In this document: one piece after another, positions 1 to 14,622 of the stretch
How positions within the stretch are numbered: the stretch's first letter is position 1
Layout of the letters: each line of letters begins with the position of its first letter
From: Candidatus Cloacimonadota bacterium
GTDB taxonomy: Bacteria > Cloacimonadota > Cloacimonadia > Cloacimonadales > Cloacimonadaceae
Length of the DNA: 14,622 nucleotides
NCBI GenBank assembly: GCA_017995495.1
Contig: JAGOIS010000019.1
Span: 1 to 14,622 of the forward strand
Reading direction: 5' to 3'
Notes under the pieces: model-generated
The model's database searches: none
Told to the model about the DNA's origin: nothing
Seen by the model: only the letters and a program-made list of their open reading frames with translations
Made by a program: the position numbers and the translations under genes

Positions 1-1316
1 CACCAGGCTACTCCGGCAAAGGAATTTGGATCCCGCCCATCCAACTGGTAATTGTTGTTCAGCCAGAGCATCAGTTGGAAGGCAGTTTCCGGATCCGGGG
101 TCCATTCGATGATCTTCTTGCCCCAATACATGCGCATGTAATTGTGCATCTTGCCTGTAAGCCTCATTTCTGTCTGAGCGGCGTTCCAGAAAGGATCGCC
201 GGTTTCAGCCTGCTCCAGCTCCGCGGCGGAATGGATGACAGGCCGGGGGTCAAACAGGTGGTCATTGAGGCTTTGTCTGGCCCAGAGCGGAATGCAGGCG
301 TAGCTGTCGTATTCAGAGTTGAACCAGCAGAAATTGCAGCTCAGTTCCCTGCGTATTATCAATTCTTCCAAAAAGGATGCCAGTCCGGCCTGTGGAGGGT
401 CAAGGTTGTTTTTGTCGCTGATGAGTCCAGCCGTGGCATAGGCCGGGACTTCGCAGTATTCGAGCGCCCGCAGGGCCACCTCCAGGGCGGAGATCTGGCC
501 AAAATGCAGATAGGGGCTCAGATTGCTCTGGATCGACAGGGAGGGATCGTTGCGTAGAGTGGAATAGCGGTGCAGCCGGTCAGATAAAAACAGTTCCAGT
601 CTCCTGATCGCCTCGCCCCGACCTCCGCGAAAGCCTGGCGCTGCACCCACGTCAGAATCTGTATTCAAGTGTCTGATGGCAAATTCTTGAAAACCCCCAA
701 TACCCATACCCGGCCTGAATGTCAGATGAGGAATTGCCGCCGGGATCCGCGGTGCCACGCGTCCGGGGGCTTGAATTCCCAGTTCTTCCACCGGTTCCAG
801 AAAGGCTTCCAAGTGTTTCAAGATCTTGCGCCGGATGGTGGCGGCAGCGTATTCCTCTTTGTTGGATACAGTCTCGACAGGAACAACAACATCGCTTTCA
901 ACCTCTATCCAGCGGCCCTCGCTGAGTTTTGCGGCCAGTTTTTGACGCCAGTTCCGCTGCCAGCGCAGATAGCCCCGGTCCATCACCACAAATCCACTTT
1001 TCCCGGCGATCGCTGCCACCACTTCGTCCGGGCTTCCGGAACACAGATGGAACGGGATCCCCTTTGTAGAGAGGCGCGCAGCCGTCTCTGCCAGGCCTTC
1101 CATCATGAACAGATAGTGGCGCTGATTGGCCTCGGGTACATCACCGCTCAGAACGAAAACTGTGATCAGGGGCGCTTTCCAGGCTCGGGCGAGTTCCGCG
1201 GCCACACTCAGCGCGTGGTTGCCCTCCACCCTCTGGGCTTGTTGCATCCAATATAGCACATATTCTGGTGGTGGTCCGGACACTTCTGTCCAGCCTGTCA
1301 TCCGGGCTGCATTCAT
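1..1316 (-). CDS. phr: Class II CPD photolyase (deoxyribodipyrimidine photo-lyase), C-terminus off the left edge
   Basis: Repairs cyclobutane pyrimidine dimers in DNA with blue light, using FAD and normally an antenna chromophore. About 438 residues are visible with no stop before position 1. From memory of archaeal class II enzymes, roughly 25-35 C-terminal residues are missing. The N-terminal antenna domain begins near 'VLYWMQQAQRVEGNHAL'. The FAD-binding catalytic half carries NLSPYLHFGQIS (about residue 265), SCNFCWFNSEYDSY (about 326), TGKMHNYMRMYWGKKI (about 388) and LDGRDPN (about 426), all hallmarks of class II rather than class I enzymes. I chose the ATG at 1316 because AGGAAAA lies just upstream. 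In-frame ATGs at 1340 and 1352 are alternatives that would add 8 or 12 residues. It is transcribed away from the pgsB operon across a 195-bp divergent gap. Family assignment is firm; only the start and the unseen end are uncertain. Confidence 0.93.
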   Translation of the reverse strand, partial: MNAARMTGWTEVSGPPPEYVLYWMQQAQRVEGNHALSVAAELARAWKAPLITVFVLSGDVPEANQRHYLFMMEGLAETAARLSTKGIPFHLCSGSPDEVVAAIAGKSGFVVMDRGYLRWQRNWRQKLAAKLSEGRWIEVESDVVVPVETVSNKEEYAAATIRRKILKHLEAFLEPVEELGIQAPGRVAPRIPAAIPHLTFRPGMGIGGFQEFAIRHLNTDSDVGAAPGFRGGRGEAIRRLELFLSDRLHRYSTLRNDPSLSIQSNLSPYLHFGQISALEVALRALEYCEVPAYATAGLISDKNNLDPPQAGLASFLEELIIRRELSCNFCWFNSEYDSYACIPLWARQSLNDHLFDPRPVIHSAAELEQAETGDPFWNAAQTEMRLTGKMHNYMRMYWGKKIIEWTPDPETAFQLMLWLNNNYQLDGRDPNSFAGVAW

Positions 1317-1511
1317 GGTTTTTCCTGTGCTGATGATCATTTTGGCCAGCATCCGGTGAAGCCGAAATATGTCAACAGTTATCGCGGCAGTGGGTCATTA
1401 CTGCGTTTCGGGAAATTCAGCAGGCTGGAATGGAATTTGCATCTATTAATGGATAAATATGCATAACGAACCATTCCGTCCCGGCTTGAAAAAACTGATA
1501 TTGAGGAACTG

Positions 1512-2711
1512 ATGACTGTGTTGATCGTTTCCACGGTGCTTCTTATAGGATACTGGATCCATGAATACTGGCGGCACCAGCGCAATGTGCAAGCCATCCC
1601 GATCCGGATCCACGTGAACGGCACCCGGGGAAAATCAAGCGTGACCCGTCTTATCGCGGCCGGACTGCGCGCTGGAGGCAAACGCACGGTGGCCAAGATC
1701 ACCGGCACCCTTCCGCGGGTGGTGCTGCCGGACGCGCGTGAAGCCGCGATCATCCGCCTGATGGGGGCGAACATCATCGAACAGAAATACATTTTCCGCT
1801 ATGCCGTGAGCGAGAAGCCGGATGCAGTGGTGATCGAGTGCATGGCTGTCAATCCTGTCTATCAGTGGATCACGGAGCAGAAATTCATCCGGAGCACGAT
1901 CAGCGTGATCACCAACTGCCGGGCCGACCACCTGGACCTGATGGGTTCAACGGAGCAGAGCGTGGCGATGTCGCTCAGCAACACAATTCCCCCAAACGGG
2001 ATCTGCTTCACCGCGGAAAACTCCCATTATGGTTTGCTGGAAGCAGTTGCCAGGAAACGCCACTGTCAAATCCATAAAGTCCGTCCCGTGGACGTCACCC
2101 AGGAGGAGATGGCCCGGTTCCGTTACATCGAGCACACCGAAAACGTCCAGCTTGCCCTGGCTGTATGCGCCGAGGCTGGTATCCCCAGGGATGTCGCGCT
2201 GCGCGGGATGCAGAGCGCCAATCCAGATCCGGGTGCCCTGCGTAAATACCAGATCAGGGACGCTGGCAAGCTCATCACTTTCTACAATATCTTTGCCTCC
2301 AACGACCCCGAGTCCACTGCCCTGGTGATCAGGATGGTCACCGGACACCTCGTGGACTCGCAACAGATCATCATCCTGAACAACCGCGCCGACAGGCTGT
2401 TCCGCTCTCATCAACTGGTGGACGAGGTAAACAAGCTGGAGTTTTCCCACCTTCTGCTCACCGGCGAGATCACGGACAAGGTTGAGGTCTATGCCCTGCA
2501 GGCGGGAATTCCGAAAGCCAAGCTTGTCAACCTGGGCGAACCTGATCCCGACGAGGTTTACAAGAAGGTGGCGGAGCTCACCCTCGGCGAATCCCACGTT
2601 CTGGGGATCGGCAATATGGCCGGCAGGATCAAGTATGGCGCTCAGATCGTGGCGCGGTTCAAACATCAAGCGAGCAAACAAAATGAGGAATTACAGTGGT
2701 TGAAGCAGTGA
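1512..2711 (+). CDS. pgsB: Poly-gamma-glutamate synthase PgsB/CapB (Mur-ligase-like ATPase)
   Basis: Amide-ligase subunit that activates glutamate with ATP and extends the gamma-linked poly-glutamate chain at the inner face of the cytoplasmic membrane, working with PgsC. Its 399 residues are close to the roughly 393 of Bacillus PgsB. A hydrophobic N-terminal anchor (about residues 2-18) is followed by the P-loop HVNGTRGKSSVTR (34-46), the ECMAVNP motif (109-115), NCRADHLDLMG (135-145) where Bacillus has an ExDHxDxMG motif, and a C-terminal Mur-like domain with the pair NPDPGALR and NNRADR. GAGGA lies 5 nt before the ATG. It is the first gene of a seven-gene plus-strand run. I found no convincing -35/-10 pair in the 195 bp upstream. 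The last 16 nt overlap pgsC. Mur ligases and folylpolyglutamate synthase share the fold, but the ECMAVNP motif and the pgsC neighbour exclude them. Confidence 0.95.
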   Translation: MTVLIVSTVLLIGYWIHEYWRHQRNVQAIPIRIHVNGTRGKSSVTRLIAAGLRAGGKRTVAKITGTLPRVVLPDAREAAIIRLMGANIIEQKYIFRYAVSEKPDAVVIECMAVNPVYQWITEQKFIRSTISVITNCRADHLDLMGSTEQSVAMSLSNTIPPNGICFTAENSHYGLLEAVARKRHCQIHKVRPVDVTQEEMARFRYIEHTENVQLALAVCAEAGIPRDVALRGMQSANPDPGALRKYQIRDAGKLITFYNIFASNDPESTALVIRMVTGHLVDSQQIIILNNRADRLFRSHQLVDEVNKLEFSHLLLTGEITDKVEVYALQAGIPKAKLVNLGEPDPDEVYKKVAELTLGESHVLGIGNMAGRIKYGAQIVARFKHQASKQNEELQWLKQ

Positions 2712-3151
2712 TACAGGCCGCGGTAGGCTTGGGCGTGATCATCAGCCTGATCTTCAGCGAAATGCTGGGCGCGTCAGCGGGGGGGATAGTTGTGCCAGGC
2801 TATCTGGCCCTCTATCTGGACAAGCCGATGCAGATCCTGGGAACTCTGATCGTCAGTTTACTCACCTGGGGGATCATCCGGATCATCGGCCGGTTCACCC
2901 TGATCTACGGAAAACGCCGCATGGTGCTGAGCATCCTGATCGGCTTCATCCTGGGCTGGGCTTCCCGGCTGCTGGTGTTTCAAAACACCACCGTCTACAC
3001 ATATCAGTTGCAGTCGATCGGTTACATCGTACCCGGCCTCATCGCCAACTGGTTCGAGCGGCAGGGCTTTGTGAAAACCATCACCGCCATGGGCGTCGCC
3101 GCGATCGTTGTCCGCCTGGCCGTGATCGTCATTTTCAACGGGGAGGCTTAG
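2696..3151 (+). CDS. pgsC: Poly-gamma-glutamate biosynthesis membrane protein PgsC/CapC
   Basis: Integral membrane partner of PgsB, needed for polymerisation and probably for passing the polymer through the cytoplasmic membrane. It has 151 residues (Bacillus PgsC has about 149) and is almost entirely hydrophobic, with about four to five membrane segments. It starts with a segment carrying GVIISLIFSEMLGASAGG and the nearby VVPGYLALYLDKP, typical of CapC. It starts with GTG at 2696 inside the 3' end of pgsB, preceded by GAGGAA at 2685-2690, so it is probably translated by coupling to pgsB. The stop is one base from the start of the next gene. The assignment is strong from length, topology, motif and position. 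Confidence 0.93.
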   Translation: MVEAVIQAAVGLGVIISLIFSEMLGASAGGIVVPGYLALYLDKPMQILGTLIVSLLTWGIIRIIGRFTLIYGKRRMVLSILIGFILGWASRLLVFQNTTVYTYQLQSIGYIVPGLIANWFERQGFVKTITAMGVAAIVVRLAVIVIFNGEA

Positions 3152-3152
3152 C

Positions 3153-4274
3153 ATGTACCGGCCATCCCTGAAATCGCCCTGGTCCCTGATCCTGCTTTTC
3201 ATTTTGAGCATTGTCCTCTATTTGTTCGCCCAAAACAGCCATTTGACGATCAAGGCCGATTACTATGAGCAAAAAGTTGCCGCGGCCAGATTGATGGCCT
3301 CATGCCTGGACAGCCTAAAAACCGCAAGGCAGGATCTCGGCTTGCCCGTTGACCCCATCGATGATCCTCTGCAGACAGGACTGATCGGCGCCGTCCGCAC
3401 CACCATCACCACCGACCGCGGATTGCTGGCGGATAAACAGGCCGCTCTCAATCCCAACCTGGCGGCTGTCTTCATCGAAGAGCTTTCCAAACAAGGCCTC
3501 AGTGCAGGCGACCACGTTGCCGTGGCGATCACAGGCTCAAATCCCGGGGCAAACCTGGCCCTCTATGCCGCCCTGAGCGTGATGCAACTGAAGCCCGCCG
3601 TCATTGTCGCGCTGTCTTCAGCCTCCTACGGCGCCAACCAGGAAGCGTTCACCTGGCTGGACATCGAAGAAGTCCTCAGGGAAAAAGGCCTGATCGATTT
3701 TGGCAGCAGCCTGGCTTCGCTGGGAGGCAAGGACGACCTGGGCGTGGGCCTTTCCGACAGCGGGATCGCGGCCCTCTACGCCGCCATGTCCCGCAACGGT
3801 GTGGGCCAGATCGTCGGGGCCAATTTTGAAGAGAGCATCAAGGCAAGGGTGAGCGCCTATAACCGATTGCTGCCGGAAGGCAAACGTTACCGTATGTTCA
3901 TCAACATCGGCCGCGGCCTGGCCACCGTTGGCAGCATTCCCAACGCCAATCAGATCCGCGAAGGCATGAATCCCAAACTGGCGGAGGAAATATTCTATCC
4001 GGAAGGTGCGATGATGATCATGGCGAGGGAAGGCGTGCCGGTTTTCAGCCTGCAGCATCCCCGGCGCTGGATCCGGAAATACAGGCTGGAAGAAGCTTCC
4101 GTCCAGATGCCGAAGCCTGGAGTGGGCCCCGCCTTCAGTGTGGAAAAACACAACGTCACCATAGCTGCCATCTGCCTTGCCCTGCTGGTGGCTGCCATAG
4201 TAACCGTCATCGTGCTGGATCGCCACGACCGCCAATTCCTGGCCAACATTGTTGATCCGGATGAAGAATTATGA
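3153..4274 (+). CDS. pgsW: Poly-gamma-glutamate system protein, PgsW type
   Basis: This 373-residue protein matches what I recall of the poly-gamma-glutamate system protein family found beside pgsB/pgsC in diderms such as Leptospira; its biochemical role is not established. A membrane segment at residues 10-26 and a second at about 334-356 flank a large central domain, so the middle is probably periplasmic and anchored at both ends. The central region has small-residue-rich stretches (VAVAITGSNPGAN 122-134, NIGRGLATVGS 251-261, the latter reading like a nucleotide- or sugar-binding loop) and no enzyme motif I can name. GGGAGG at 3141-3146 lies 6 nt before the ATG. PgsA/CapA, which occupies this slot in Bacillus, is absent here, so this protein may fill a related need. 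The family name rests on context plus recall of the family. Confidence 0.75.
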   Translation: MYRPSLKSPWSLILLFILSIVLYLFAQNSHLTIKADYYEQKVAAARLMASCLDSLKTARQDLGLPVDPIDDPLQTGLIGAVRTTITTDRGLLADKQAALNPNLAAVFIEELSKQGLSAGDHVAVAITGSNPGANLALYAALSVMQLKPAVIVALSSASYGANQEAFTWLDIEEVLREKGLIDFGSSLASLGGKDDLGVGLSDSGIAALYAAMSRNGVGQIVGANFEESIKARVSAYNRLLPEGKRYRMFINIGRGLATVGSIPNANQIREGMNPKLAEEIFYPEGAMMIMAREGVPVFSLQHPRRWIRKYRLEEASVQMPKPGVGPAFSVEKHNVTIAAICLALLVAAIVTVIVLDRHDRQFLANIVDPDEEL

Positions 4275-4287
4275 CCTTGGAGTATAC

Positions 4288-5112
4288 ATGTTCAAACGCC
4301 TGATGCTTGTCCTGGCCTGCCTCGCGGCCTTGTCCGCGTTTCCGGCCAAGGTCAGGCCACTCAATTTCCAAAACCCCGGCAACCGCCGCCTCCTGAAGAC
4401 GGAGCAAGGCAATTACTGGTATTACCGGTCACTGCCGGAAAAATCCATGATCCTCAACGTTGAGGGCGTCTCCACCCTCGAGTTGCGTGCTTTTGGACTA
4501 CAGGAACTGCGCAAACCCCAGGTGATCACCATCATCAGCCGGCAAAAAAAGACCTGGGATCTCAGCCTTCAGCAGCGCCTGGACGGATTCCACCTATACC
4601 GCGAGCTCAGCATCCCCATCCCGGCAGGGACCCAGACCATCGAGATACTCTGTTATGAACGCGGCATCTATTTCCGCCCCTTTCATACAGTCGGGACAGA
4701 GCCCAAGCCGAAAACTGCCAAACCCGCCAACCTGGCCATCGGCGCCCATGGCGGAGTGATCACCGTCAGCCACAACGGCACCGACAGCCCCTATTACGTA
4801 TTCAATACCGCTCAGGGACTCAAATTCACCGTGAACAACGGCCGGGAAGCGATCGTCTTTGTTCGCGCCAGATTGCTGGACCGCAGCCTCCCCGTCTTCG
4901 CGCTCTACCGCGACGGCGATTTGCTTGGCACCCACGAATTCACGCTGCGCCGCAGCACCAAATACAAGGCCGCGGGGGTGGACCATCTGACCATAGGCCT
5001 GAAGCTGGAACTTCCCCCCAACAGTGGCTCCGCGCAATATGAACTCCGCGCCCTGAGCGACCATTTGTTTTTCGCGCGGCCACTCTTGCTCAAAACCGGC
5101 CGGGGTCAATGA
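4288..5112 (+). CDS. Exported protein with two tandem beta-rich domains, pgs operon
   Basis: I do not recognise a named family. From the ATG at 4288 the protein has 274 residues. It begins MFKRLMLVLACLAALSAFPA, a clear signal peptide, so it should reach the periplasm. This start is preferred over an in-frame ATG at 4249 inside pgsW because GGAG at 4279-4282 sits at the right distance and the signal peptide then begins at residue 1. The mature part splits into two similar halves (about 40-145 and 168-270), joined by a Pro/Lys-rich linker around EPKPKTAKPA. Each half has an alternating beta pattern and begins with a YY pair. It follows pgsW by 13 nt and overlaps the next gene by the four bases ATGA, so it is translated with the pgs genes. 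A periplasmic scaffold or polymer-guiding role is inferred from context only. Confidence 0.7.
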   Translation: MFKRLMLVLACLAALSAFPAKVRPLNFQNPGNRRLLKTEQGNYWYYRSLPEKSMILNVEGVSTLELRAFGLQELRKPQVITIISRQKKTWDLSLQQRLDGFHLYRELSIPIPAGTQTIEILCYERGIYFRPFHTVGTEPKPKTAKPANLAIGAHGGVITVSHNGTDSPYYVFNTAQGLKFTVNNGREAIVFVRARLLDRSLPVFALYRDGDLLGTHEFTLRRSTKYKAAGVDHLTIGLKLELPPNSGSAQYELRALSDHLFFARPLLLKTGRGQ

Positions 5113-6245
5113 TGCCTGATCCGATCAAGACCGAATCACCGGAACCCGAGGTTGACACCCTGCCCGGCGGCACCCATAAACGCAACCCCAAAGAGAAACC
5201 GGAAGCCCGGACCAAGGAAAAACAGCCGCCCAAGGTGCCGCGCAACATCGTGCCGATCATTATGGGGTTAGCCGCGATCCTGCTGCTGGCGCCCGCACCC
5301 CTGATGGCGCAACTGCAGTGCGGCGTCTCGATTGGAACCACTTATTCCGATAATGTATTCCAACTTTCGCCCTATGACCTGAGCCGCTGGGACAACAGCC
5401 ATCCCAACCTCGGCTATGTGAACACCACAGACGATCTAAGCCTGAACGCCAGCTTCGATCTGGCCTGGCCTCTCCGTTACCAGTGGTGGAAGATCACTCC
5501 TTCGGTTACTGCCAACCTGTCCCAAAACTATGCCAATCCGGATAAACAGCGCCAGGATGCCCTCTTCCGCCTGCGTGTCGACCGCCACTACTGGAATTTC
5601 ACCGCCTTATACGGCTATTTTCCCCAAAATTACGTGCGCAGCTACATTGATGCCGACGGAACCGGAAACCTTGAGAAATACAGTTATGAACGAAACCTCT
5701 GGCGCGGCGACCTCAACCTCAAACCCTTCAAAAACACCACCCTGAGCCTGCAGGGACGCTATGAGCAATACTATTACAACCAGTATTGGACAGAGTTCGA
5801 CGCCAACGCCACCACTCTCGGCTTCGGTGCCCGCCATGCTTTTCCAGCCTTCAGTCTGGGAGCCTCCTACCGCTACCGCATCCATGACAACCATCGCCAC
5901 GGCATCCGGGACGGCAGCTATGAAAGCAACCGCTACAGCGGAAACATCCGCCTGGCTGCCACCCCCCTTGATAATGACAAACCCGGCAGCCCCACTTTCC
6001 AGCCCGAACTTGCCCTCTCCTACGAACAGCGGTATTTCCAGTCCAACGATCCCTGGTATGGCGGCCGCGCGGACCATATCTACAACACCGAAGCAACCGT
6101 CAATATCGGCTTCGGCCCGCGCTGGAATTTAAAACTTGACTACTCTCACGCCTATAGGAATATAGAATCGCCTGTGGAGGAAGTCCGCCGCGCCAGGGAA
6201 TACAGCGAGAATAAGGTCTCTGCCACAGTCAAATACAGCTTTTAG
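5109..6245 (+). CDS. Predicted outer-membrane beta-barrel protein, pgs operon
   Basis: Probable outer-membrane barrel. After a cleavable signal ending near PLMA (about residue 67) come roughly 310 residues of alternating aromatic and polar strands (for example YQWWKITPSVTANLSQNY, FRLRVDRHYWNFTALYGY, TTLSLQGRYEQYYYNQYW, WNLKLDYSHAYRN), ending in KYSF with the terminal Phe typical of outer-membrane proteins. I estimate 12-16 strands. It overlaps the previous gene by ATGA. The N-terminus is odd: about 42 Pro/Glu/Lys-rich residues precede the signal-like segment. A GTG at 5235 would instead give MPRNIVPIIMGLAAILLLAP, an ordinary signal peptide, but its AAGGAAA is about 14 nt away. Its place behind pgsBC suggests a polymer exit channel or anchor; that role is inferred, and no enzyme or transporter family is recognised. 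Confidence 0.75.
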   Translation: MMPDPIKTESPEPEVDTLPGGTHKRNPKEKPEARTKEKQPPKVPRNIVPIIMGLAAILLLAPAPLMAQLQCGVSIGTTYSDNVFQLSPYDLSRWDNSHPNLGYVNTTDDLSLNASFDLAWPLRYQWWKITPSVTANLSQNYANPDKQRQDALFRLRVDRHYWNFTALYGYFPQNYVRSYIDADGTGNLEKYSYERNLWRGDLNLKPFKNTTLSLQGRYEQYYYNQYWTEFDANATTLGFGARHAFPAFSLGASYRYRIHDNHRHGIRDGSYESNRYSGNIRLAATPLDNDKPGSPTFQPELALSYEQRYFQSNDPWYGGRADHIYNTEATVNIGFGPRWNLKLDYSHAYRNIESPVEEVRRAREYSENKVSATVKYSF

Positions 6246-6254
6246 GTGAACACC

Positions 6255-6587
6255 ATGGAATTCAGAAAAGAAAGCGACATCAAGAAGATCAGGGAATTCA
6301 TCGACCTTTCCGAGAACCACAAGATCGAGCTTCGTCACTACAAAAGCCCCATTTTGGTCTGGGCGGTTTCGGACGGCACCGCCTATTATGCTGTCTGGGA
6401 GGATGAGCTTCTTCAGAGGTACGGCTTGGAAAACGTCGATGGCTGGGATTTTGAGGAGGACCTGCTCTTTTGTCCGGATTGGATGGCGGAAGACTGGGAT
6501 GATGAAGATTCCGACCTTGATGATGACGACGACGAGGACCTGAGCCTCATCTGCGACATCAAGCTGCCGCCTCCGGAAAAGGAATGA
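6255..6587 (+). CDS. Small acidic hypothetical protein
   Basis: A 110-residue protein without a signal peptide or membrane segment, so probably cytoplasmic. The first 75 residues look folded, with basic and aromatic stretches (MEFRKESDIKKIREF, HKIELRHYKSPILVWAV, GTAYYAVWEDELLQRYG). The rest becomes strongly acidic, with DWDDEDSDLDDDDDEDL at about residues 81-97, and ends LPPPEKE. The ATG at 6255 is preferred because AGGTGA at 6244-6249 is well spaced; a GTG at 6246 would add three residues. It sits 9 nt after the barrel gene and 14 nt before gpsA, inside the same run. No family recognised. Confidence 0.7.
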   Translation: MEFRKESDIKKIREFIDLSENHKIELRHYKSPILVWAVSDGTAYYAVWEDELLQRYGLENVDGWDFEEDLLFCPDWMAEDWDDEDSDLDDDDDEDLSLICDIKLPPPEKE

Positions 6588-6601
6588 TCCCGGAGTAAAC
6601 C

Positions 6602-7621
6602 ATGCGAATCGCGGTGATCGGCGGAGGCGGATGGGGACTGGCTTTGGCTAAACTCCTGGCTGAAAACTCACATCAGGTGCTGGTCTGGGAACATGATCCC
6701 GGATTTCTAAGCACCCTGCAAACCACCGGCTCCAATCCCCTGCTGCTGCCCAATGTGGTTATGCCGCAGTCGGTTGGCTTCACCGGCGATTTTTCCGCCC
6801 TGGCCGAATTCCAACCCCAACTGCTCCTGCTCGCCACGCCCACCCAGTTCATCCGCGCCTCCCTGGCTCAGATTTCCCCGGCAGACCAAGATGCCATCTG
6901 GAACGCGGACCGCCTGAAGGCTGTGATCAACGTGGCCAAGGGCATCGAGGAGAATTCACTGCTCACGGTCAGCGGTATCCTCAGGGAAATCCTGCCAAGG
7001 GCCATCCACTCCAGGATCTGCACACTCTCCGGACCCAGCCACGCCGAAGAGGTGGCCCGCCAGATCCCCACCACAGTGGTCATCGCCGGGCCGGATGACG
7101 CTCTGCTGAGGGAATTGCAAAGCGTTTTCAGCAACCCCTATTTTCGCGCCTACCGAAGCTCTGACCTAATTGGGGTGGAGCTGGGCGGCGCGGTGAAAAA
7201 CGTGATCGCCATCGCCGCCGGGATCGTTGCCGGGCTTGGTTTTGGCGACAACACCATGGGCGCCCTGCTCACCCGGGGTCTGGTGGAGATCCAGCGTCTG
7301 GGTGTGGCCAGCAAAGCGCTTCCGGAAACCTTTTTGGGCCTCTCCGGCGTGGGGGACCTCATCACCACAGCCATTTCACCTCACAGCCGCAACCGCCATG
7401 TGGGCTTCGAAATCGGCTCCGGGCGCAAACTGCGGGATATCGTGGCCGAAATGAAGATGGTGGCAGAGGGCGTGGTCACCACCAAGTCCGTATTTGACCT
7501 TGCCCACCAGCTGAACGTGGAAATGCCCATCACAACCCAGGTGCACGCCACCCTCTACCAGGACAAAGACCCCCGCCAGGCCATCCTGGAACTGATGACC
7601 CGCGAACTGAAAGCGGAATAA
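6602..7621 (+). CDS. gpsA: NAD(P)+-dependent glycerol-3-phosphate dehydrogenase
   Basis: Reduces dihydroxyacetone phosphate to sn-glycerol-3-phosphate, the backbone for phospholipids, in the cytoplasm. The 339 residues match the family length. The N-terminal Rossmann motif is IGGGGWG (residues 6-12). NVAKGIE (110-116) and SGPSHAEEV (143-151) follow. The catalytic and substrate region is GAVKNVIAIAAG (196-207) with Lys199, followed by GLGFGDNTMGALLTRGL, LSGVGDL (247-253) and SRNRHVG (262-268). GGAG at 6592-6595 lies 6 nt before the ATG. It is the last gene of the plus-strand run; a housekeeping lipid gene ending a capsule operon may be incidental. Assignment is unambiguous. Confidence 0.98.
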   Translation: MRIAVIGGGGWGLALAKLLAENSHQVLVWEHDPGFLSTLQTTGSNPLLLPNVVMPQSVGFTGDFSALAEFQPQLLLLATPTQFIRASLAQISPADQDAIWNADRLKAVINVAKGIEENSLLTVSGILREILPRAIHSRICTLSGPSHAEEVARQIPTTVVIAGPDDALLRELQSVFSNPYFRAYRSSDLIGVELGGAVKNVIAIAAGIVAGLGFGDNTMGALLTRGLVEIQRLGVASKALPETFLGLSGVGDLITTAISPHSRNRHVGFEIGSGRKLRDIVAEMKMVAEGVVTTKSVFDLAHQLNVEMPITTQVHATLYQDKDPRQAILELMTRELKAE

Positions 7622-7632
7622 GCTTCGCGCGA

Positions 7633-7650
7633 TTCCGGGCCGACCCGGAA
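7633..7650 (+). terminator. Possible terminator of the pgs-gpsA operon
   Basis: A perfect 7-bp stem, TTCCGGG / CCCGGAA with loop CCGA, begins 11 nt after the gpsA stop. It has no T-tract (AGAAGCACC follows), so it may be a weak or factor-dependent terminator, or only a 3'-end stabilising hairpin. Confidence 0.35.
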
Positions 7651-7759
7651 AGAAGCACCAACATAAGCCACGGACAGTCCAAATGGGTTGAAACGAGCAA
7701 AAAATAAACCGGCCAGGTTCTGCGGTATTCACCTCAGGCAATAAATTCCACTCCTCCCT

Positions 7760-7842
7760 CCCGCGATCAATACGGAATAAATACGGAATCAATACGGATT
7801 TCATCCGTATTGATTCCGTATTTATTCCGTATTGATCGCGGG
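7760..7842. repeat. Perfect palindrome with 40-bp arms made of three 11-bp units
   Basis: Arms 7760-7799 and 7803-7842 are exact reverse complements, separated by only three bases (TTC). Each arm carries three head-to-tail 11-mers: ATCAATACGGA (7766-7776), ATAAATACGGA (7777-7787) and ATCAATACGGA (7788-7798), mirrored at 7804-7836. The central unit differs by one base (C to A) and the mirrored unit carries the matching change. A CCCGCG / CGCGGG clamp closes the base. No T-tract follows on the plus strand, so it is not a standard intrinsic terminator. It could form a cruciform in DNA or a long double-stranded hairpin in read-through RNA. Identity unknown. Confidence 0.9.
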
Positions 7843-7903
7843 GGCCATGTCTCGTCCTAAAATAGTTGAAACCCGCATTGTTTCTTAGAGTCGACGGTTA
7901 AGG

Positions 7904-7936
7904 CACAAAAAAGCCCGGTTTGTGACCGGGCTTTTG
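7904..7936 (-). terminator. Intrinsic terminator of the deiminase gene
   Basis: Read on the minus strand, a 9-bp stem AAGCCCGGT / ACCGGGCTT (7925-7933 with 7911-7919) and a 5-base loop are followed by TTTTTTG, ending about 17 nt after the stop codon. The A/T flanks are symmetric enough that it may also stop plus-strand read-through. Confidence 0.85.
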
Positions 7937-7949
7937 CCAAGCTGGATTT

Positions 7950-9539
7950 CTATTTGGCTGAAAAATAGGACTCATCCGCAGCCAGGACCCTGTAAAAACG
8001 CCGGTCGTGGCTGAGATCCATATCGTTCCAGTTGGTGTCGGTGGTCTCGCCCAGGAATTCGAAAGTCCCTGCGGGATCGTCACTCACCCAAACCTGGTAA
8101 TAGACAGCGTTGGGGACAGAGTTCCATTCTATTTGGATGAAGTTTCCGCTTTCCGACACGTAGCTGATGGCAACATCCGGCACTGCAAGCGAGTTTACAT
8201 CCACCAGGATCTCGAAGGGATCCTGAGCTCCGCAAAGCGGCAGTTTGGTGGTTCTGTTTGTGGTGTCGGTTACCAGGATGTAGTAATAGAGGGTTTCTCC
8301 ATACTGCGGGGTGGGCACTTCAGCGGTCCAGACCTCTCCACTCACATAGGCAAGGTCCGCATACTGCCATTCTCCGGAAGCGCCATGCCGGTAGGCCACA
8401 TATGTGTTTGCCGCCAGCGGATTGCTGTGGCTGATCTCCGCGTTGATGGCAATGGTGCTGTTGGCAGTGGCAGAGCTGGGTGGCACGTGCCAGACGTGGA
8501 TCATCTGGCTGTCGAAGACCGTATTTATCCTGCAGTGCAGGGCGTCGGTGGATTCGTAGCTTGCGTAGTAATAATTGGTCACCGTGTAACCCGGCATCGC
8601 GGCTTGGTAGGCCGCAACGGCTGCCGCGTCGTTGCTGTTGTTCACCTTGGGTATGTAAATGTTGTTGTTCAGGATATAGCCATTGGTGTAGGGTTCGTTG
8701 TTCGGGGTATAGACCCGGAAGATCTGGTAGGGAGTACCGTAACCTGAGGTTTTGGCTTCCCACTCATTCACCGTGGCCTCGATCTCGTCGTATTGGGGAT
8801 GGCTGGTGGGAACGCTCCGGATGATCACTTTGTCCACATCCAGGAGTTTTGCCCAGCAATCGATGTGATCGATATAGGTGTTGTTGGGATCGGTGTAGAT
8901 CTGATAATCTGTCACTCCGAGGTACTGCTGCATCAGGTTTTTGACCTGTGCCAGGGTGAGGTTGGTGTTTTCCTCCACCACGAGGTGGGTGGACATCGCC
9001 GCTTCGTGGCCGTCGCACATGATGTTTCCCCCAGTGTGTACAATTGGCATGAAGTAGTAATCCAGACCGAGGAAATTCGCTATGGTCACTGGGATCACTT
9101 CGTCATAGGGGCGGGGACGGTTGTAATCGGTGTCAATGATCTTCATTACCCCGCCGTCGAAAATGGTCCAGGGCCCGTAGTCGCGCACCCAGTAGCTGTC
9201 GGTGGTGGCGTTGATGAAGATCACGTTGCTCATGTTTACACCGTTTGCAGACAGATTGCTGGTGGCGGCAGACTGTGATCCCGCGGTGACGATCACATAG
9301 AGCTTTGTTTGCTGGGAGATGTTGGCCAGCAAATTATAGGGCTGGCCCAAAGGATAGCGGACGATCGCGCCCTGGGCGGGTTCCCATTCCGCCACAAACC
9401 TTGGCGCTGCCGGATAATCTCTTGCCTGGGTTGTTTCAATCGGGGTGGATGCCGGATCTGCGAGGTTGGCGGCATCGGCCATGAGGCCTGTTGCCAAGAG
9501 CGCCAGGCAGATGATCAGAACTGTTTTGAATGCATTCAT
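7950..9539 (-). CDS. Secreted PPAD-like peptidylarginine deiminase (agmatine-deiminase superfamily)
   Basis: Predicted to convert arginine side chains, or a related guanidino substrate, to citrulline outside the cytoplasm. It has 529 residues. A signal peptide (1-23) precedes the deiminase domain (about 47-350), an Ig-like beta domain (about 352-447) and a C-terminal domain (about 453-529) shared with two other proteins here. Catalytic residues are visible: Asp120 in YWVRDYGPW, HTGGNIMCDG (168-177), His225 and Asp227 in IDHIDCWAK, and Cys336 in DALHCRI. Spacing closely follows Porphyromonas PPAD (Asp130, His236, Asp238, Cys351 from memory), and an Arg-Pro-Arg at 141-143 fits the substrate-carboxylate arginines Arg152/Arg154. 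True agmatine deiminases are cytoplasmic and lack the signal and trailing domains. GGGGAG precedes the ATG by about 7 nt. The gene lies downstream of the C25 peptidase in the same direction, with a terminator between. Substrate remains inferred. Confidence 0.88.
   Translation of the reverse strand: MNAFKTVLIICLALLATGLMADAANLADPASTPIETTQARDYPAAPRFVAEWEPAQGAIVRYPLGQPYNLLANISQQTKLYVIVTAGSQSAATSNLSANGVNMSNVIFINATTDSYWVRDYGPWTIFDGGVMKIIDTDYNRPRPYDEVIPVTIANFLGLDYYFMPIVHTGGNIMCDGHEAAMSTHLVVEENTNLTLAQVKNLMQQYLGVTDYQIYTDPNNTYIDHIDCWAKLLDVDKVIIRSVPTSHPQYDEIEATVNEWEAKTSGYGTPYQIFRVYTPNNEPYTNGYILNNNIYIPKVNNSNDAAAVAAYQAAMPGYTVTNYYYASYESTDALHCRINTVFDSQMIHVWHVPPSSATANSTIAINAEISHSNPLAANTYVAYRHGASGEWQYADLAYVSGEVWTAEVPTPQYGETLYYYILVTDTTNRTTKLPLCGAQDPFEILVDVNSLAVPDVAISYVSESGNFIQIEWNSVPNAVYYQVWVSDDPAGTFEFLGETTDTNWNDMDLSHDRRFYRVLAADESYFSAK
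8014..8057. repeat. Copy 1 of a dispersed DNA repeat encoding the shared C-terminal domain
   Basis: This stretch encodes the LGETTD...WNDMDL core of the terminal domain and closely matches 14464-14507 in the same orientation, including runs such as TCGTTCCAG and CGCCCAGGA. The similarity at DNA level suggests recent duplication or gene conversion between exoprotein 3' ends. Confidence 0.7.
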
Positions 9540-9862
9540 TTACGTACTCCCCGTTCGTTAAATGGAACGGTTTCATTATTGTTGTACTCAATTCCGCGGC
9601 CTGGTTCAGCAGCTTGGTCACATAAACAGGGTCTTTGGCTTGCCAAGCTCCACGAAAATATATGTTGAAAAACTCTATAAGGGATTTGTTACCCGTATTT
9701 GGAAGTGTGATAATCTGTCAACGGCAACTCTAGTTTCTACGGAGTATGGGAATTTACTCATGAAATGAAGCTGGTCCAGACACCCAAGGTGCTGACATGA
9801 AAGGCACTGCGCAAAAAGGCCGGCCCCGCTGAGCGACAGGCTTGGCGGGGCCGGAATTATGG
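9540..9862. other. Intergenic region between peptidase and deiminase genes
   Basis: These 323 bp hold the peptidase terminator at one end and the deiminase ribosome-binding site at the other. On the minus strand a TTGACA (9721-9716) could be a -35 box, but no good -10 lies 16-18 nt on. A TATATTTT near 9663-9656 is another weak candidate. Small open frames here have no supporting features, and I see no RNA gene. Confidence 0.6.
9815..9859 (-). terminator. Intrinsic terminator of the C25 peptidase gene
   Basis: On the minus strand a 10-bp GC-rich stem CCGGCCCCGC / GCGGGGCCGG (9845-9854 with 9820-9829) closes a 15-base loop and is followed by CCTTTTTGCGC. It starts just past the stop codon at 9863, so the peptidase is probably transcribed alone, with the deiminase needing its own promoter or read-through. 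Confidence 0.85.
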
Positions 9863-12800
9863 TTATTTCTTGGTGGTTCTTTTTACCGGGGGCTCGGACA
9901 GGGCTCTCACTTTGTAGAAAGCCATGTCGTTTGCTTCGGTGTCGTTGTAGCTGAGATCTTCAGTATAGGCCAGGTGCTCATAGGTGCCGTAGGGCTCCAA
10001 GGCACGGAGGATCTGGTATTGGCCGGCGTTGGGCACGGCCGGCCAGGAGACGGTCACGCCCGCGGTTTCGCTGGTGGCGATGGTTACCGCCGGGGTGGCA
10101 AGCGCCTCGGACATGTAAGCGATCCTGAGGTTGGGACGGTAGGCAACTGATGTGCCGCCACTGAAGACATTGCTCATATCCGCCGCATTGCTGACGGCTG
10201 TCCGGTAACCAGTGGTGATGCTGGTATATTGGGTTTGTCCGCTGGTGTGGGTGGATCCGATCAGGCCAAAGGCGGTGTCAACCACGATGTTGTCCGTGCC
10301 GTTCCAGGTGAAGGGGGTGGCCAGGGCCAACAGGTTCCAGCCGGTCTCTGTGGGCCGGTAGGAAGTGGAAGACCAGACCTGGGTGAGGTTGGCAGCGGGG
10401 ATCCAGCTTGCTCCGTTGATGGCAGTGGTATGGCCCATGCGGATCACGTAGTTGGGCATGCTCAGGGTGGGTATTCCGGTCACGTTGAAGCCGATCTTCA
10501 TGATCTGGACGGGGCCGAACACTCCGGCAGCGTTAAGTTCCGCGGCAGTGTAAACCGACTGTCCGTGCAAACTCTGGAAGTTGATGTTCACCGGGCAGGG
10601 TGTCGCGACGCCGCTGCTGAAGCTGCCGGTGCCGAGGGTGGCTTCCACCGGCAGATTGGAGGTCGGGGTGGCCTGAACCGTGTTGGAGGGATCCGCGGCC
10701 TCGCCGTTGTAAACCGCCACCACGTAGTAGCTGTAGGTGGTCTCATTCACCACGGCGCTGTCCGTGTAGGTGAGCCCAGTCACAGTGGTGAGCAGGCTGC
10801 CGTCGCGGAAGATCCGGTATCCACTGGGGGCTCCGAAATAGGGCGCGTCCCAACTGAGTGCCACAAAGCCGTTGCCGGCTTCCGCGAACAGATTCTGGGC
10901 GGGATAGAGCTCGGCTGACATCGGGAAGAGCCTCAGCATCAGGTTGGGCTGGTTGTTGCTGGCGGTCAGCGAGGTCGGCTGGGATGTATCGCTGCGGGCC
11001 TGGCGCGCGCGGGTGGAGGAGGAGGTGGTGTAGGACCAGTAGGGATAATTGGTGATATAGGCTTGATTCCCCTTGATGGTGAGGATGGAGAGGTTGGTGC
11101 CGTCATAGGGGAACAGGGTGTTCAGGTTCACTTCCATCCAGCCGCTGGTGGATGTGTTGGGCCAGTTGCCGCTATACACCTGGGTGTAACCGGTGGTGGA
11201 ATAGGTCCCGGTGGCCAGGGTGGACGCGGTGGTGTTCTTCATGTAGATGGTCACAGCCTCGATGGGGTTCACGTCTGCTCCGCTGGCCTTGTGGAAGGCG
11301 ATGGACTTGATGGTTCCCGCGGTGCCTATCTCAGTGGACAGGTAGATGGCCTCGTGGCTGGAGTAGTTGTAGTAACGGTCGATGGGATAGGATTGTGTGG
11401 AGGTGCCGGTGCCGATGATCACCTGCAGGGGGGCGCCGATCTCCACATTCACGGTGGTGTCGGCTTCATATGCTCCCGCGGCGGCTTGGAAGACAAACGG
11501 GGCCAGGGTGCCTTCAGCCATGGAGGCTTCGGCCGAAGCCGTGAAGCTGAGGGTGGCATAGCCTCCGGCGGGGATGGCCGTGAAGCTGGAACTGCCGTTG
11601 ATGATGGTGATGCCAGTGGTGGCACAGGTAACTGTCCCGCTTCCGTCCAGGGAGGCGGCTCCACCAGTGTTGTTCAGAGGGATGGTCAGGGTCACGGTTT
11701 CACCCGGATCGAACAGACCATCGTTATCACCGGTCGGATCGCTGACGGTCATGCCGCCGAAAGCCAGCTCCGGCGCGTTGATCGTGAGGGTGAAGTTCTT
11801 CACCCAGGTGTCACTGCCGCTGGTCATGGTGATGGTGAAGTTCGCCACAGAGCCATCGGCGAAGTCGTCTGCGATCGAGATGGCATAGGCATTGTCGATG
11901 GTGGTGGCTGTGTCCGGGGCCAGGGAGGCGAAGTTGGCGGAGTTGTCGGTGATGGTGATACCTTCTGTCGCGCTGGTGAGAATGGCAGTGACAGCGCTGG
12001 CGGGGTCGGAACCCACGTTTTTGAAGGTAACGTCCAGATAGCCGCTTTCGTTGTAGTCCGGCAGGTCGTTGTTGGCGTCGTCATAGACGGTGGCGGTCAC
12101 GCTCATCCAGGGGCCGTCGTTGGCGATGATATCGATCTCGTCCAAGATGGTGATCTTGTTTAGGGCCGTGATCACGAGGGTGGCGGTGCCGGCATCGGTG
12201 AAGGGGGTGAGAGGCAGATTGAGGTAGCCGCTGGCATCGGCGAGGGCTGTTCCGTAGATCACGCCGTCCAGGGTGATGGCCACGTGGGAATAGGGGGCCG
12301 CGCCGGTGATCTCAACTTCGGTCTGACCGATGAAGATCTGGGCGGGATACACAGCGGCGTTGGCCGAAGGGGTCTTGGAGCGGGCCAACAAACTGGCGTC
12401 ACCGAAGATGTGCCAGGTTTTGAACATGTTCACGCCGTCGGAACCAGAAGTGCTTCCATATATGTCCATCATCTTGCAGGAACCGTTGAAAAAGAGACCG
12501 CCAATAGTTGTTTTGGATTCGGCGATCAGCAGGTCTGTCACCTCATCCTGGGCGCGCATCGGCGAATTCCAGGATTGGTTGATGGAGGAGGCGTACATAG
12601 CCACAGAACCGCCGTTGGCATTGCGTTGCCAGGCCTCGGCAAAGCAGGTGATGGAAACGAAATTTCCGTTAACGCAGGCTACATCGACTATGAAGGGAGT
12701 CTTGTTACCATTGGTGAGAGCACTGGCATTGCTATTGCTGAAGCCGGTGGTCCCCCAGGTCGTGTCGGATCCGTGGCCCACGTAGTTCACGAAGCCGCGG

Positions 12801-14071
12801 CCGGCGTTGATGTTGGTGGTCACAGTGGAAGCGGAGGCGCCTGGATCGTAGATCTGATCGACTGTGGTGTAACCGTAGTTGAGCAGGTCGGTGCGGATCA
12901 GGTTCGAGTGCGCTATGTCCGATTCTCCCATGTCGCCCAAGCCGCCGCCGCCTTCAGAGGAAGCGATGCCCATGGCCTTGCTCAGCCAGACGGCGGTTTC
13001 GTTCAGGTCACGTTCATAAACTATAGCTTTGTTGATCTGGGCGGTCACATCCCCTGTGGTCTGAGCGGAAAAACGACCGATGAAAATATCCGGATAGTTG
13101 TCCGAACCGGCAACCAACGAGAAAGTTGGGTCTGAACCGCCGCCACCGGACGATAGAGACGGGATCTGCGGGGCGTCGCCCACGATTTGCACATAGCTGA
13201 TGTTGTTATCCGCGTTGTAGCGATTCTGAATATAGGTCTGCAGCTGCGCGGCGGTGGTGCCGATGGTGGACCATTCGATCAGCTCTGTATGGATACCCTT
13301 TTGGATCTTCCAATTCACATAAGGTTGGATGGCGCTCAGGTAATTGGTGTGGCAGATAACCAGCAGTTTGCCAAAAGTGTCGTCCACCGGGGTATAGCGA
13401 TAATTTTCCCAGTTCAGGAAATGGTTGCTATAGATCGGTTCAAAATCACGCGCGATGCTGTTTCTCTCTCTGGTGAGAACGTTTACCGTGTCCAAGCCAT
13501 TGGCAAACACGCGGATTTTGTAAGATGTGTAAACACGTAAAACACCTGTCTTTGGGTTGAAGGCAAAGGGAATGGTTTTGACTGTGATTCCTCTGAAGTC
13601 CCTCATGATATAGGGCTCAGAGAGTTCAGCCACGGCCTGGGGATAGAACTCGTCTTTCTCATAGACATCCCCGAAGGTGTAGGGAACCGTCGCGGGGTCG
13701 ATGTTACGGGTGATTACACCTTTGGACGGGGCAACGCGGATCTGGTAATCCTGATATTGCGCATCGAAGAGCTCAAGCCGCATCCGGGCTGTGGTGTCAA
13801 TTATGATACTGCGATTAAAAACGGGAAGCTGGGGCAAGCCCTTGTCCTGAGTGATCCCTTCCTTGGGAAGGTTGATATGGAACCATTCATCCCCCCCGAT
13901 CCTCACAGGCAGGGTGTCAAATTTGCCGATCTGATACTGCAATACAGTTTCAGACGCTGAAGAGCTGAGAACGGCAACGGAGTTGACTCCGCTTCCGGTC
14001 GTGATCGTCTCCGCGGCTAGAGCGAATGTTAGCAGCATCAGCAGAGACGGCAACAAGAGTGTTCTTTTCAT
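9863..14071 (-). CDS. Secreted gingipain-family cysteine peptidase (C25), modular
   Basis: Predicted extracellular cysteine endopeptidase of 1402 residues. Signal peptide MKRTLLLPSLLMLLTFALAA (1-20); gingipain-like propeptide (about 21-225); C25 catalytic domain (about 235-570) with His433 in NYVGHGS and Cys466 in DVACVNGNF. The 33-residue gap equals that in RgpB (His211/Cys244, from memory). Then an Ig-like domain (573-650), two CARDB-like beta domains (about 655-765 and 768-878), a beta-sandwich unit (884-1049), an fn3 domain (1056-1137), a second copy of the unit (1143-1320) and the shared C-terminal domain (1325-1402). The ATG at 14071 is chosen over 14116 because AGGAGG precedes it and the signal peptide then starts at residue 1. 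Arg or Lys specificity cannot be read here. The C-terminus ends VKRTTKK and does not look like a classical type IX sorting signal to me. Confidence 0.92.
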   Translation of the reverse strand: MKRTLLLPSLLMLLTFALAAETITTGSGVNSVAVLSSSASETVLQYQIGKFDTLPVRIGGDEWFHINLPKEGITQDKGLPQLPVFNRSIIIDTTARMRLELFDAQYQDYQIRVAPSKGVITRNIDPATVPYTFGDVYEKDEFYPQAVAELSEPYIMRDFRGITVKTIPFAFNPKTGVLRVYTSYKIRVFANGLDTVNVLTRERNSIARDFEPIYSNHFLNWENYRYTPVDDTFGKLLVICHTNYLSAIQPYVNWKIQKGIHTELIEWSTIGTTAAQLQTYIQNRYNADNNISYVQIVGDAPQIPSLSSGGGGSDPTFSLVAGSDNYPDIFIGRFSAQTTGDVTAQINKAIVYERDLNETAVWLSKAMGIASSEGGGGLGDMGESDIAHSNLIRTDLLNYGYTTVDQIYDPGASASTVTTNINAGRGFVNYVGHGSDTTWGTTGFSNSNASALTNGNKTPFIVDVACVNGNFVSITCFAEAWQRNANGGSVAMYASSINQSWNSPMRAQDEVTDLLIAESKTTIGGLFFNGSCKMMDIYGSTSGSDGVNMFKTWHIFGDASLLARSKTPSANAAVYPAQIFIGQTEVEITGAAPYSHVAITLDGVIYGTALADASGYLNLPLTPFTDAGTATLVITALNKITILDEIDIIANDGPWMSVTATVYDDANNDLPDYNESGYLDVTFKNVGSDPASAVTAILTSATEGITITDNSANFASLAPDTATTIDNAYAISIADDFADGSVANFTITMTSGSDTWVKNFTLTINAPELAFGGMTVSDPTGDNDGLFDPGETVTLTIPLNNTGGAASLDGSGTVTCATTGITIINGSSSFTAIPAGGYATLSFTASAEASMAEGTLAPFVFQAAAGAYEADTTVNVEIGAPLQVIIGTGTSTQSYPIDRYYNYSSHEAIYLSTEIGTAGTIKSIAFHKASGADVNPIEAVTIYMKNTTASTLATGTYSTTGYTQVYSGNWPNTSTSGWMEVNLNTLFPYDGTNLSILTIKGNQAYITNYPYWSYTTSSSTRARQARSDTSQPTSLTASNNQPNLMLRLFPMSAELYPAQNLFAEAGNGFVALSWDAPYFGAPSGYRIFRDGSLLTTVTGLTYTDSAVVNETTYSYYVVAVYNGEAADPSNTVQATPTSNLPVEATLGTGSFSSGVATPCPVNINFQSLHGQSVYTAAELNAAGVFGPVQIMKIGFNVTGIPTLSMPNYVIRMGHTTAINGASWIPAANLTQVWSSTSYRPTETGWNLLALATPFTWNGTDNIVVDTAFGLIGSTHTSGQTQYTSITTGYRTAVSNAADMSNVFSGGTSVAYRPNLRIAYMSEALATPAVTIATSETAGVTVSWPAVPNAGQYQILRALEPYGTYEHLAYTEDLSYNDTEANDMAFYKVRALSEPPVKRTTKK

Positions 14072-14399
14072 CAGTTTTCCTCCTGACGGTTTATATGAGT
14101 ATTGAATGTATCCCAAGTAATGTAGTGCTTGGGGGCGAAAAATATCACATCACGAATAAGCTGCATTTCCACTTCATCAAGTGGTGGTAGTCAGAATCGC
14201 TATTCTACCGCTTTGTCCAGCGGAATTATCAGCGAATTCTGCAAACCAGGAAACACGTGCCCATAATAAAGCATTTTCTTTGCCAATTGAAAAATTTCTG
14301 TGGTGCTCCTGATACCATATGAAGATCAATCATCAAGGAAGCCGTATAAACAACAAGCCCGGCTTTGAGGGCCGGGCTTGAGGGTATCTGGTTTGTTGG
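14072..14399. other. Intergenic region upstream of the C25 peptidase
   Basis: These 328 bp should hold the peptidase promoter on the minus strand. The best pair I can see is TTCAAT (14291-14286), 17 nt, TATTAT (14268-14263), about 190 nt before the start codon, which would leave a long leader. A small hairpin CCACTT / AAGTGG lies at 14169-14184. The right end contains the terminator of the next upstream gene. No gene is supported. Confidence 0.5.
14350..14380 (-). terminator. Intrinsic terminator of the right-edge gene
   Basis: On the minus strand a 9-bp stem AAGCCCGGC / GCCGGGCTT (14371-14379 with 14355-14363) and a 7-base loop are followed by GTTGTTTATA. The tail is less pure in T than the other two terminators, but position 20 nt after the stop and the stem are typical. 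Confidence 0.75.
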
Positions 14400-14622
14400 T
14401 TATTTGGTTATCAGGTACGATTCATCCGAGGCGATGATCCTGTAGAAGCGCATCATCTGGCCGAGGTCCATGTCGTTCCAGTAAGCGTCGGTGGTTTCGC
14501 CCAGGAAGCTGTAGGTCCCGAAGGGATCGTTGCTGCCCCAGACCTGGTAGAAGTTGGCGTTGGGGATGGCGTTCCACTCGACCTTCACGTAGTCGGAAGC
14601 GGCGTCCACGTAGCTGATGGAG
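14400..14622 (-). CDS. C-terminal fragment of a secreted protein with the shared terminal domain
   Basis: Only the last 73 residues are in the window; the frame stays open to the right edge. They form one fn3-like beta domain, from SISYVDAASDYVKVEW to FYRIIASDESYLITK. By hand alignment about 42 of 72 positions are identical to the end of the deiminase, including YQVW, FLGETTD, WNDMDL and DESY. A GTG at 14609 could be mistaken for a start, but the homology continues upstream of it, so this is a 3' fragment of a longer gene. The main domain, and thus the function, is outside the window. Confidence 0.85.
   Translation of the reverse strand, partial: SISYVDAASDYVKVEWNAIPNANFYQVWGSNDPFGTYSFLGETTDAYWNDMDLGQMMRFYRIIASDESYLITK
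14464..14507. repeat. Copy 2 of a dispersed DNA repeat encoding the shared C-terminal domain
   Basis: Counterpart of 8014-8057 in the same orientation, about 6.4 kb away. It lies inside the right-edge gene fragment and encodes the same LGETTD...WNDMDL core. Confidence 0.7.

Follow-up and report, generated by a model that had tools for sequence, protein, structure and literature searches.

A predicted arginine-specific gingipain and a PPAD-type deiminase in Cloacimonadota: one chain in relatives, two adjacent genes in a probable split form

A stretch of DNA from a Candidatus Cloacimonadota bacterium (assembly GCA_017995495.1, contig JAGOIS010000019.1, positions 1 to 14,622), analysed here at its full length of 14,622 nucleotides and referred to below as ‘the window’, carries two neighbouring genes on its minus strand: one encodes a C25 protease resembling the Arg-gingipain RgpB of Porphyromonas gingivalis, the other a peptidylarginine deiminase (PAD) resembling PPAD from the same organism. 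In the closest loci that we recovered, the two enzymes lie in one stop-free frame, and both domains of the window nest inside the clade made up of such fusions. We consider it probable that the two proteins, both predicted to be secreted and the protease predicted to be Arg-specific, act in series on the same polypeptides.

The two enzymes of the window

The protease gene (9863..14071, minus strand; 1,402 amino acids) opens with its own hydrophobic, signal-like N-terminal segment. Reading from there towards the C-terminus, we see a propeptide domain (13481..13981, minus strand; Pfam match to PF08126 over residues 31–197 at 5.4e-23, with a match to the RgpB propeptide at 3e-30), the C25 catalytic domain (12389..13363, minus strand; PF01364 at 9.1e-56 by profile search, and alignment to RgpB), a C-terminal immunoglobulin (Ig)-like domain (12134..12370, minus strand; PF03785), a long spacer (10103..12133, minus strand) and a final FN3-like tail (9893..10102, minus strand). 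Alignment to RgpB indicates that the His–Cys dyad is kept (H433 and C466, equivalent to His211 and Cys244), with E373 noted alongside it, and that the S1 pocket is retained in full: D385, Q499, W501 and M505 correspond to Asp163, Gln282, Trp284 and Met288. The roles of the dyad and pocket residues have been documented for RgpB (PMC9559808, PMC4357240), and D385 supplies the acidic S1 residue on which the Arg specificity proposed in an initial annotation of the window depended. The RgpB propeptide places Arg126 of its inhibitory loop into S1 (PMC4357240); the equivalent residue here is R122, with R225 (nucleotides 13397–13399) directly preceding the mature start, YTPV. A Lys-gingipain identity was considered and rejected, the match to Kgp (3.8e-34) falling far behind that to RgpB (1.4e-88) and the S1 Asp being present; on the strength of its residues, the protein is predicted to be an RgpB-type gingipain with specificity for arginine.

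The deiminase gene (7950..9539, minus strand; 529 amino acids) also has a signal-like N-terminus of its own. Residues 38–449 (8193..9428, minus strand) superpose on PPAD and share its architecture, a deiminase fold followed by an Ig-like domain; beyond these lies a C-terminal FN3-like tail (7953..8189, minus strand). All five catalytic residues of PPAD are kept (D120, H225, D227, N286 and C336, equivalent to Asp130, His236, Asp238, Asn297 and Cys351), together with R141, R143 and Y222, the equivalents of the Arg152, Arg154 and Tyr233 that in PPAD bind a C-terminal arginine through its free carboxylate (PMC4893104); with these residues in place, the window enzyme should require a free C-terminal carboxylate in its substrate. 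Across the sequences collected below (duplicates included), the Arg152/Arg154 equivalents are found in 36 of 36 fused proteins and in 150 of 152 other PADs, the remaining two being gapped; the Tyr233 equivalent is replaced by S, T or N in 14 of the 36 fused proteins.

Agmatine deiminases are cytoplasmic enzymes. They (AguA) have the guanidino-modifying fold in common with the window deiminase, but their alignments to its model, at 18–22% identity, stop at residues 342–346, before the PPAD-type Ig part. An agmatine deiminase identity was rejected: the PPAD match, at 6.6e-87, far exceeds that of the best agmatine-deiminase entry (4.6e-8), the PPAD residues are kept, and the two curated agmatine-deiminase cut-offs are missed (TIGR03380, 51.6 against 381.8 bits; NF010070, 55.2 against 483). 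The initial annotation had described a gingipain-like protease beside a PPAD-like deiminase, and the domains, the S1 pocket and the catalytic and carboxylate-binding residues bear this description out; its preference for PPAD over agmatine deiminase likewise holds at the level of sequence, the PPAD match being far the better and two residues that bind the C-terminal Arg being kept.

One-chain fusions in related genomes

A deiminase search of named genomes gave 80 loci, to which were added 100 stretches from the window's phylum, mostly the best matches of a longer list, such that the set of PADs from the phylum is not exhaustive. With PAD domains shorter than 300 amino acids and the copy of the window itself (L001) left out, the non-redundant set comprises 147 PAD domains: 23 are fused to C25, 23 have a same-strand C25 gene at a distance under 600 bp, 11 have a more distant one or one on the opposite strand, 67 lack any, and 23 have too little flanking sequence.

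All 23 distinct fused loci belong to Cloacimonadota, in frames mostly of 1,130–2,600 amino acids (that of L019 being cut by a contig end after the PAD), and C25 precedes PAD in every case. Both the S1 Asp and the S1 Trp are present in 23 of the 23 distinct fused proteins. In 21 of the 23 loci the frame also takes in the propeptide; the exceptions are L018, whose frame opens within C25 at the end of a contig, and L120, where the propeptide occupies an overlapping frame. The spacer between C25 and PAD measures 512–1,268 amino acids in 21 fusions and 4–5 in the other two; L127, a compact fused frame of 1,134 amino acids in a single-contig genome, has its C25_C domain joined almost directly to PAD. 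Two fused loci (L147 and L150) are not part of the main clade and come from different families within the same order; the fusion may have had a single origin or as many as three.

When predicted proteins were searched with the PAD portion of one fusion, 301 matched; of these, 120 were listed, and 111 of the 120 combine C25 and PAD in a single chain, with C25 first in 111 of 111, many of them close variants of a single 1,132-residue form. In the source databases these go by the names ‘C25 family cysteine peptidase’, ‘agmatine/peptidylarginine deiminase’, ‘hypothetical’ or ‘uncharacterized’; a sole entry, P0224, bears both half-names, drawn from two sources. An AlphaFold model of a compact fused protein that is truncated at its N-terminus (P0008; 10-row alignment) is of low confidence, with a mean pLDDT of 47 and a pTM of 0.25.

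The window pair as a split fusion

PAD domains were placed in two trees, a careful one (IQ-TREE) containing 50 of the 147 distinct PADs, with the long-branch clade members L199 and L217 left out, and a quick one containing all 147. The C25 tree came from a short search without bootstrap over 98 sequences, its unlinked C25s being taken from five genomes; long-branch meeting was flagged in it among sequences distant from the window. In the careful PAD tree, the window falls within a clade of 30 sequences (21 fused, three adjacent and six others; support 100/99), and within this to an inner set of 17 (97/92). In the C25 tree, it falls within a clade of 24 (support 98), composed of 21 fused and three adjacent sequences, from which all 54 unlinked C25s sampled are absent. 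As each domain, in its own tree, sits inside the fused clade, the most natural reading of the window pair is a once-fused gene now divided into two.

Other parts of the two proteins are consistent with this reading. Both domains find their highest identity in the same fused locus, L120 (64% for PAD, 76% for C25), and stretches of 231–490 amino acids in the protease spacer are 45–68% identical to the C25–deiminase spacer of fused relatives, reaching 68% over 490 amino acids in one of them; the tail of the window protease, in turn, is akin to the final tail of the fused proteins. Between the two genes we see the protease stop codon, a GC-rich, terminator-like hairpin of 15 pairs directly 3′ of it (9820..9854, minus strand; followed by CCTTTTT on that strand), and then the new signal-like N-terminus of the deiminase. 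That the split is an artefact of a single assembly is unlikely, as a database protein (P0001), sharing 88% identity with the window deiminase, likewise takes a 529-residue form with a signal segment of its own.

Other split states occur in the clade: L014 (identical to L126) has a single in-frame stop, and L022 (identical to L137) has overlapping C25 and deiminase frames. The frame breaks in L014, L022 and L120 are either further split states or sequencing errors.

Extent and specificity of the linkage

Linkage of C25 to PAD is a trait of one clade together with several scattered cases, and not of PPAD-like genes generally. When 105 PAD sequences were classed, with clade labels set manually from the trees, 28 (the window included) were assigned to the clade, three had an uncertain place, and 74 were other Cloacimonadota sequences. 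Within the clade, 20 of the 28 are fused, three have C25 immediately adjacent on the same strand, one has C25 elsewhere in the stretch, one has none, and three have too little flank; the separation in relatives that would have told against the initial annotation is thus not seen within this clade.

Linked C25s also differ in type from those found elsewhere in the same genomes. In the five genomes whose C25s were listed, the S1 Asp is present in five of five linked C25s and in eight of the 54 others that could be aligned (hypergeometric, 2.6e-4; the five linked proteins are orthologues, so this value overstates their independence, and one of the 60 C25 matches, L246, did not align). Two of those 54, both lacking the S1 Asp, have a PAD nearby: L253 follows a fused gene at a distance of 260 bp, and L243 neighbours a stand-alone PAD and is encoded on the opposite strand. 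Of the 13 C25s that adjoin a PAD on the same strand in phyla other than Cloacimonadota, 12 carry the S1 Asp and group in an Rgp-like clade (99); these 12 loci come from Bacteroidota and Marinimicrobia, the PAD lying upstream in five (Bacteroidales) and downstream in seven. The C25–PPAD gene pair is found, then, in uncultured Bacteroidales and Marinimicrobia also.

As a separate observation, four of the five listed genomes have a Kgp-like C25 (without the S1 Asp, and with a TAHG motif as in Kgp) in tandem with an Rgp-like C25 (G001 C1:1148877-1153740; G011 C2:98815-103716; G032 C4:16186-21096; G045 C7:4052-8862). In the four tandem Rgp-like proteins, the residue at the propeptide junction is Lys and not Arg, which would fit activation by the adjacent Lys-type protease.

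Secretion and the fate of citrulline

The tail carried by both window proteins has 13 matches in the window genome (the window's own counted), and in the fetched loci (duplicates included) 71 of 74 tail matches finish within 15 amino acids of the C-terminus of their frame, as would be expected of a sorting domain. One of these tails, 58% identical to that of the deiminase, ends a third gene on the minus strand, of which the window edge leaves only the end (14400..14621). The best match of the tail to a solved structure is, by sequence, a weak one to an Fn3-like protein (E 0.0033); structure comparison (VIA-align list) barely covers it. SprA (PF14349), a translocon component of the type IX secretion system (T9SS) and the component searched for, is found in the window genome at 1.2e-14 and in 45 of 49 genomes of the family, and Cloacimonadota are among the phyla that may have a T9SS (PMC11285876). 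We infer that both proteins are exported by this route with the shared tail as sorting signal. Four clade PPADs without a fused C25 (L023, L149, L199 and L217) have open reading frames ending in RKAVLMK-like tails, that of L149 matching Por_Secre_tail (PF18962).

Ornithine carbamoyltransferase gives matches in 47 of the 49 genomes, 32 of them over the cut-off, and is present in the window genome; carbamate kinase is matched in 44 of 49, with 42 over the cut-off, the copy in the window genome being partial and below it. Together these enzymes would allow citrulline breakdown, which is compatible with the protein fermentation and acid buffering suggested in the initial annotation but not specific to them; ornithine carbamoyltransferase itself decides nothing here, because it is also biosynthetic.

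A proposed mechanism and its alternatives

In the mechanism that we favour, a fused ancestral gene would have split in the window's lineage, the protease half gaining a copy of the C-terminal tail, a stop codon and a hairpin, and the deiminase half a signal peptide of its own. Once both proteins had been exported by the T9SS, with the shared tail as signal, the protease would activate itself by a cut after the Arg of its propeptide and would then cleave outside proteins after Arg; the deiminase would convert the new C-terminal arginines to citrulline, freeing ammonia. The citrullinated peptides might then be taken up, and their citrulline degraded by way of ornithine carbamoyltransferase and carbamate kinase. 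With rather less assurance than we attach to serial action as such, we lean towards a broader picture, in which Cloacimonadota possess a natural bifunctional ‘cut-and-citrullinate’ exoenzyme, built as one secreted chain and present in the window in split form. On this view, the Rgp–PPAD couple of gum disease would be one dispersed form of an ancient environmental module for arginine processing, found repeatedly as a fusion or as neighbouring genes in Cloacimonadota, Marinimicrobia and Bacteroidales, and citrullinated peptides would be common breakdown products in anoxic digesters and sediments. The initial annotation had likewise proposed an arginine-processing module; that idea gains from the fusion, which it had missed, and loses the operon-like unit that it had implied.

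A number of observations count against serial action by a linked pair. Because the GC-rich hairpin and TTTTT stand just past the protease stop, the window genes are probably separate transcription units, which speaks against co-transcription. Neither protein has a match to PF18962 or any other known T9SS tail model at E <= 0.001. Linkage is rare beyond the clade: among the 74 other Cloacimonadota PADs, 44 have no C25 in the stretch, 14 have short flanks and six have C25 further off, the remainder being seven with an adjacent C25 on the same strand, one with C25 on the opposite strand and two fusions. Of the seven adjacent C25s in that group, five could be aligned (one with a gap at the site) and none of the five has the S1 Asp; in Bacteroidota and Marinimicrobia, the S1 Trp is missing from four of the 12 adjacent C25s. 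Within the clade itself, L149 is without C25 in its flank, L023 has one only on the other strand, 2 kb away, and the long-branch PADs L199 and L217, assigned to the clade by the quick tree, have no C25 in their stretches. L120, the nearest fused relative, has its propeptide in a different, overlapping frame. Lastly, the fused linkers contain 6–22 arginines (the two compact forms excepted), with no arginine depletion of the kind that would signal resistance to self-cutting (R/(R+K) 0.55); because linker arginines are not depleted relative to lysine, the fused protein may cut itself apart.

Among the alternatives, the one that fares best, which we nonetheless regard as improbable, is that the deiminase mainly serves the protease, by citrullinating an end-Arg of the propeptide that lingers in S1 as a product inhibitor and so fixing the active form. 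The propeptide would suit such a role: Arg occupies the junction position in 22 of 22 fused proteins that extend this far, the inhibitory-loop Arg is kept in 21 of 21 that can be aligned there, its RgpB counterpart, Arg126, is known to sit in S1 (PMC4357240), and fusion would provide both closeness and a 1:1 ratio. The same loop Arg, however, is present in eight of eight unlinked Arg-type C25s without a neighbouring deiminase, such that activation seems not to need one, and PAD is unlinked in most other Cloacimonadota loci.

Less probable again is the view that the two are mere neighbours in a cluster of secreted proteins sharing a sorting tail, each with unrelated substrates. A third tail-bearing gene does adjoin the pair, C25 genes occur commonly across the phylum (in 124 of 124 genomes) and between the two genes stands a terminator-like hairpin; set against this are the co-inheritance of both domains, the selective linkage of Arg-type C25s within the clade, and the occurrence of one-chain fusions in 23 distinct loci and in 111 of the 120 listed proteins. 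Chance adjacency in the window was rejected because of these same fusions and the co-nested PAD and C25 trees.

Least credible of all is an exported agmatine or free-arginine deiminase, in a pair devoted to nutritional arginine release with peptide citrullination as a side reaction, given the match to PPAD (6.6e-87, against 4.6e-8 for the best agmatine-deiminase entry), the retention of both peptide-carboxylate-binding arginines, and the PPAD-type extra Ig domain and signal-like N-terminus.

Relation to known systems and significance

RgpB and PPAD of P. gingivalis are separate proteins encoded by unlinked genes. The window pair shares with them both enzyme types and the catalytic, S1 and carboxylate-binding residues, but differs in that its genes are adjacent (and form one chain in relatives), in its tails and spacer, and in belonging to another phylum. 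In the multidomain gingipains RgpA and Kgp, the C25 protease is followed in one chain by further domains, these being adhesins; here, by contrast, the extra module is a second enzyme.

The interplay of Rgp and PPAD in P. gingivalis has been described (PMC9559808, PMC4893104). PPAD-like enzymes outside Porphyromonas have been placed in a published tree and include the centiPADs of centipede venoms, which are of bacterial origin (PMC7864903); the centiPADs keep the catalytic residues but have changes at two specificity residues that are kept in the window protein, and section 9 of that article names no protease partner. Gingipain-like peptidases have been noted in Cloacimonadota (PMC8542988) and in a set of metagenome-assembled genomes that includes Cloacimonetes (PMC8359207), and according to a 2024 article no bacterial PAD other than PPAD has been described at the level of species (PMC11121387). 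Searches of the open-licence literature, part of it accessible as excerpts, on the pair, the fusion and PPAD in Cloacimonadota found no description of a C25–PAD fusion; as far as these searches show, the fusion of a protease to a citrullinating enzyme, with the window pair as its split form, is new within the literature covered.

Arguments over why PPAD exists, and why it acts on C-terminal arginines in step with gingipains, have drawn chiefly on a single oral pathogen; the union of both enzymes on one chain, in anaerobes from a different phylum, provides independent evidence that the two activities belong together, and makes their function testable with a single recombinant protein. The fusion further suggests that C-terminal citrullination did not necessarily begin as a virulence trait, and that citrullinated peptides may be present in anaerobic digesters.

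Neighbouring features of the window

Positions 1512–4274 of the window hold poly-gamma-glutamate synthesis genes (PgsB, PgsC and a TIGR04332-type system protein, all over their cut-offs), and further downstream of these, at 5109–6245, lies a weak outer-membrane-barrel match, below its cut-off. In several relatives (L179, L063, L162, L167, L203, L206 and others), phr or pgsB lies within about 10 kb of a stand-alone PPAD-like gene; because of this arrangement, and because the window starts inside phr, a stand-alone deiminase may sit just past the left contig end.

Between gpsA and the deiminase gene, at 7760–7842, we see a perfect inverted repeat of 40 bp around a 3-bp loop, composed of ATACGGAAT-like units. 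The same element is found at about 40 places in the 1.49-Mb genome at 88–100% identity (BLAST; 80 matches over both strands, with 40 of 44 candidates scored), and belongs to a dispersed palindromic repeat family.

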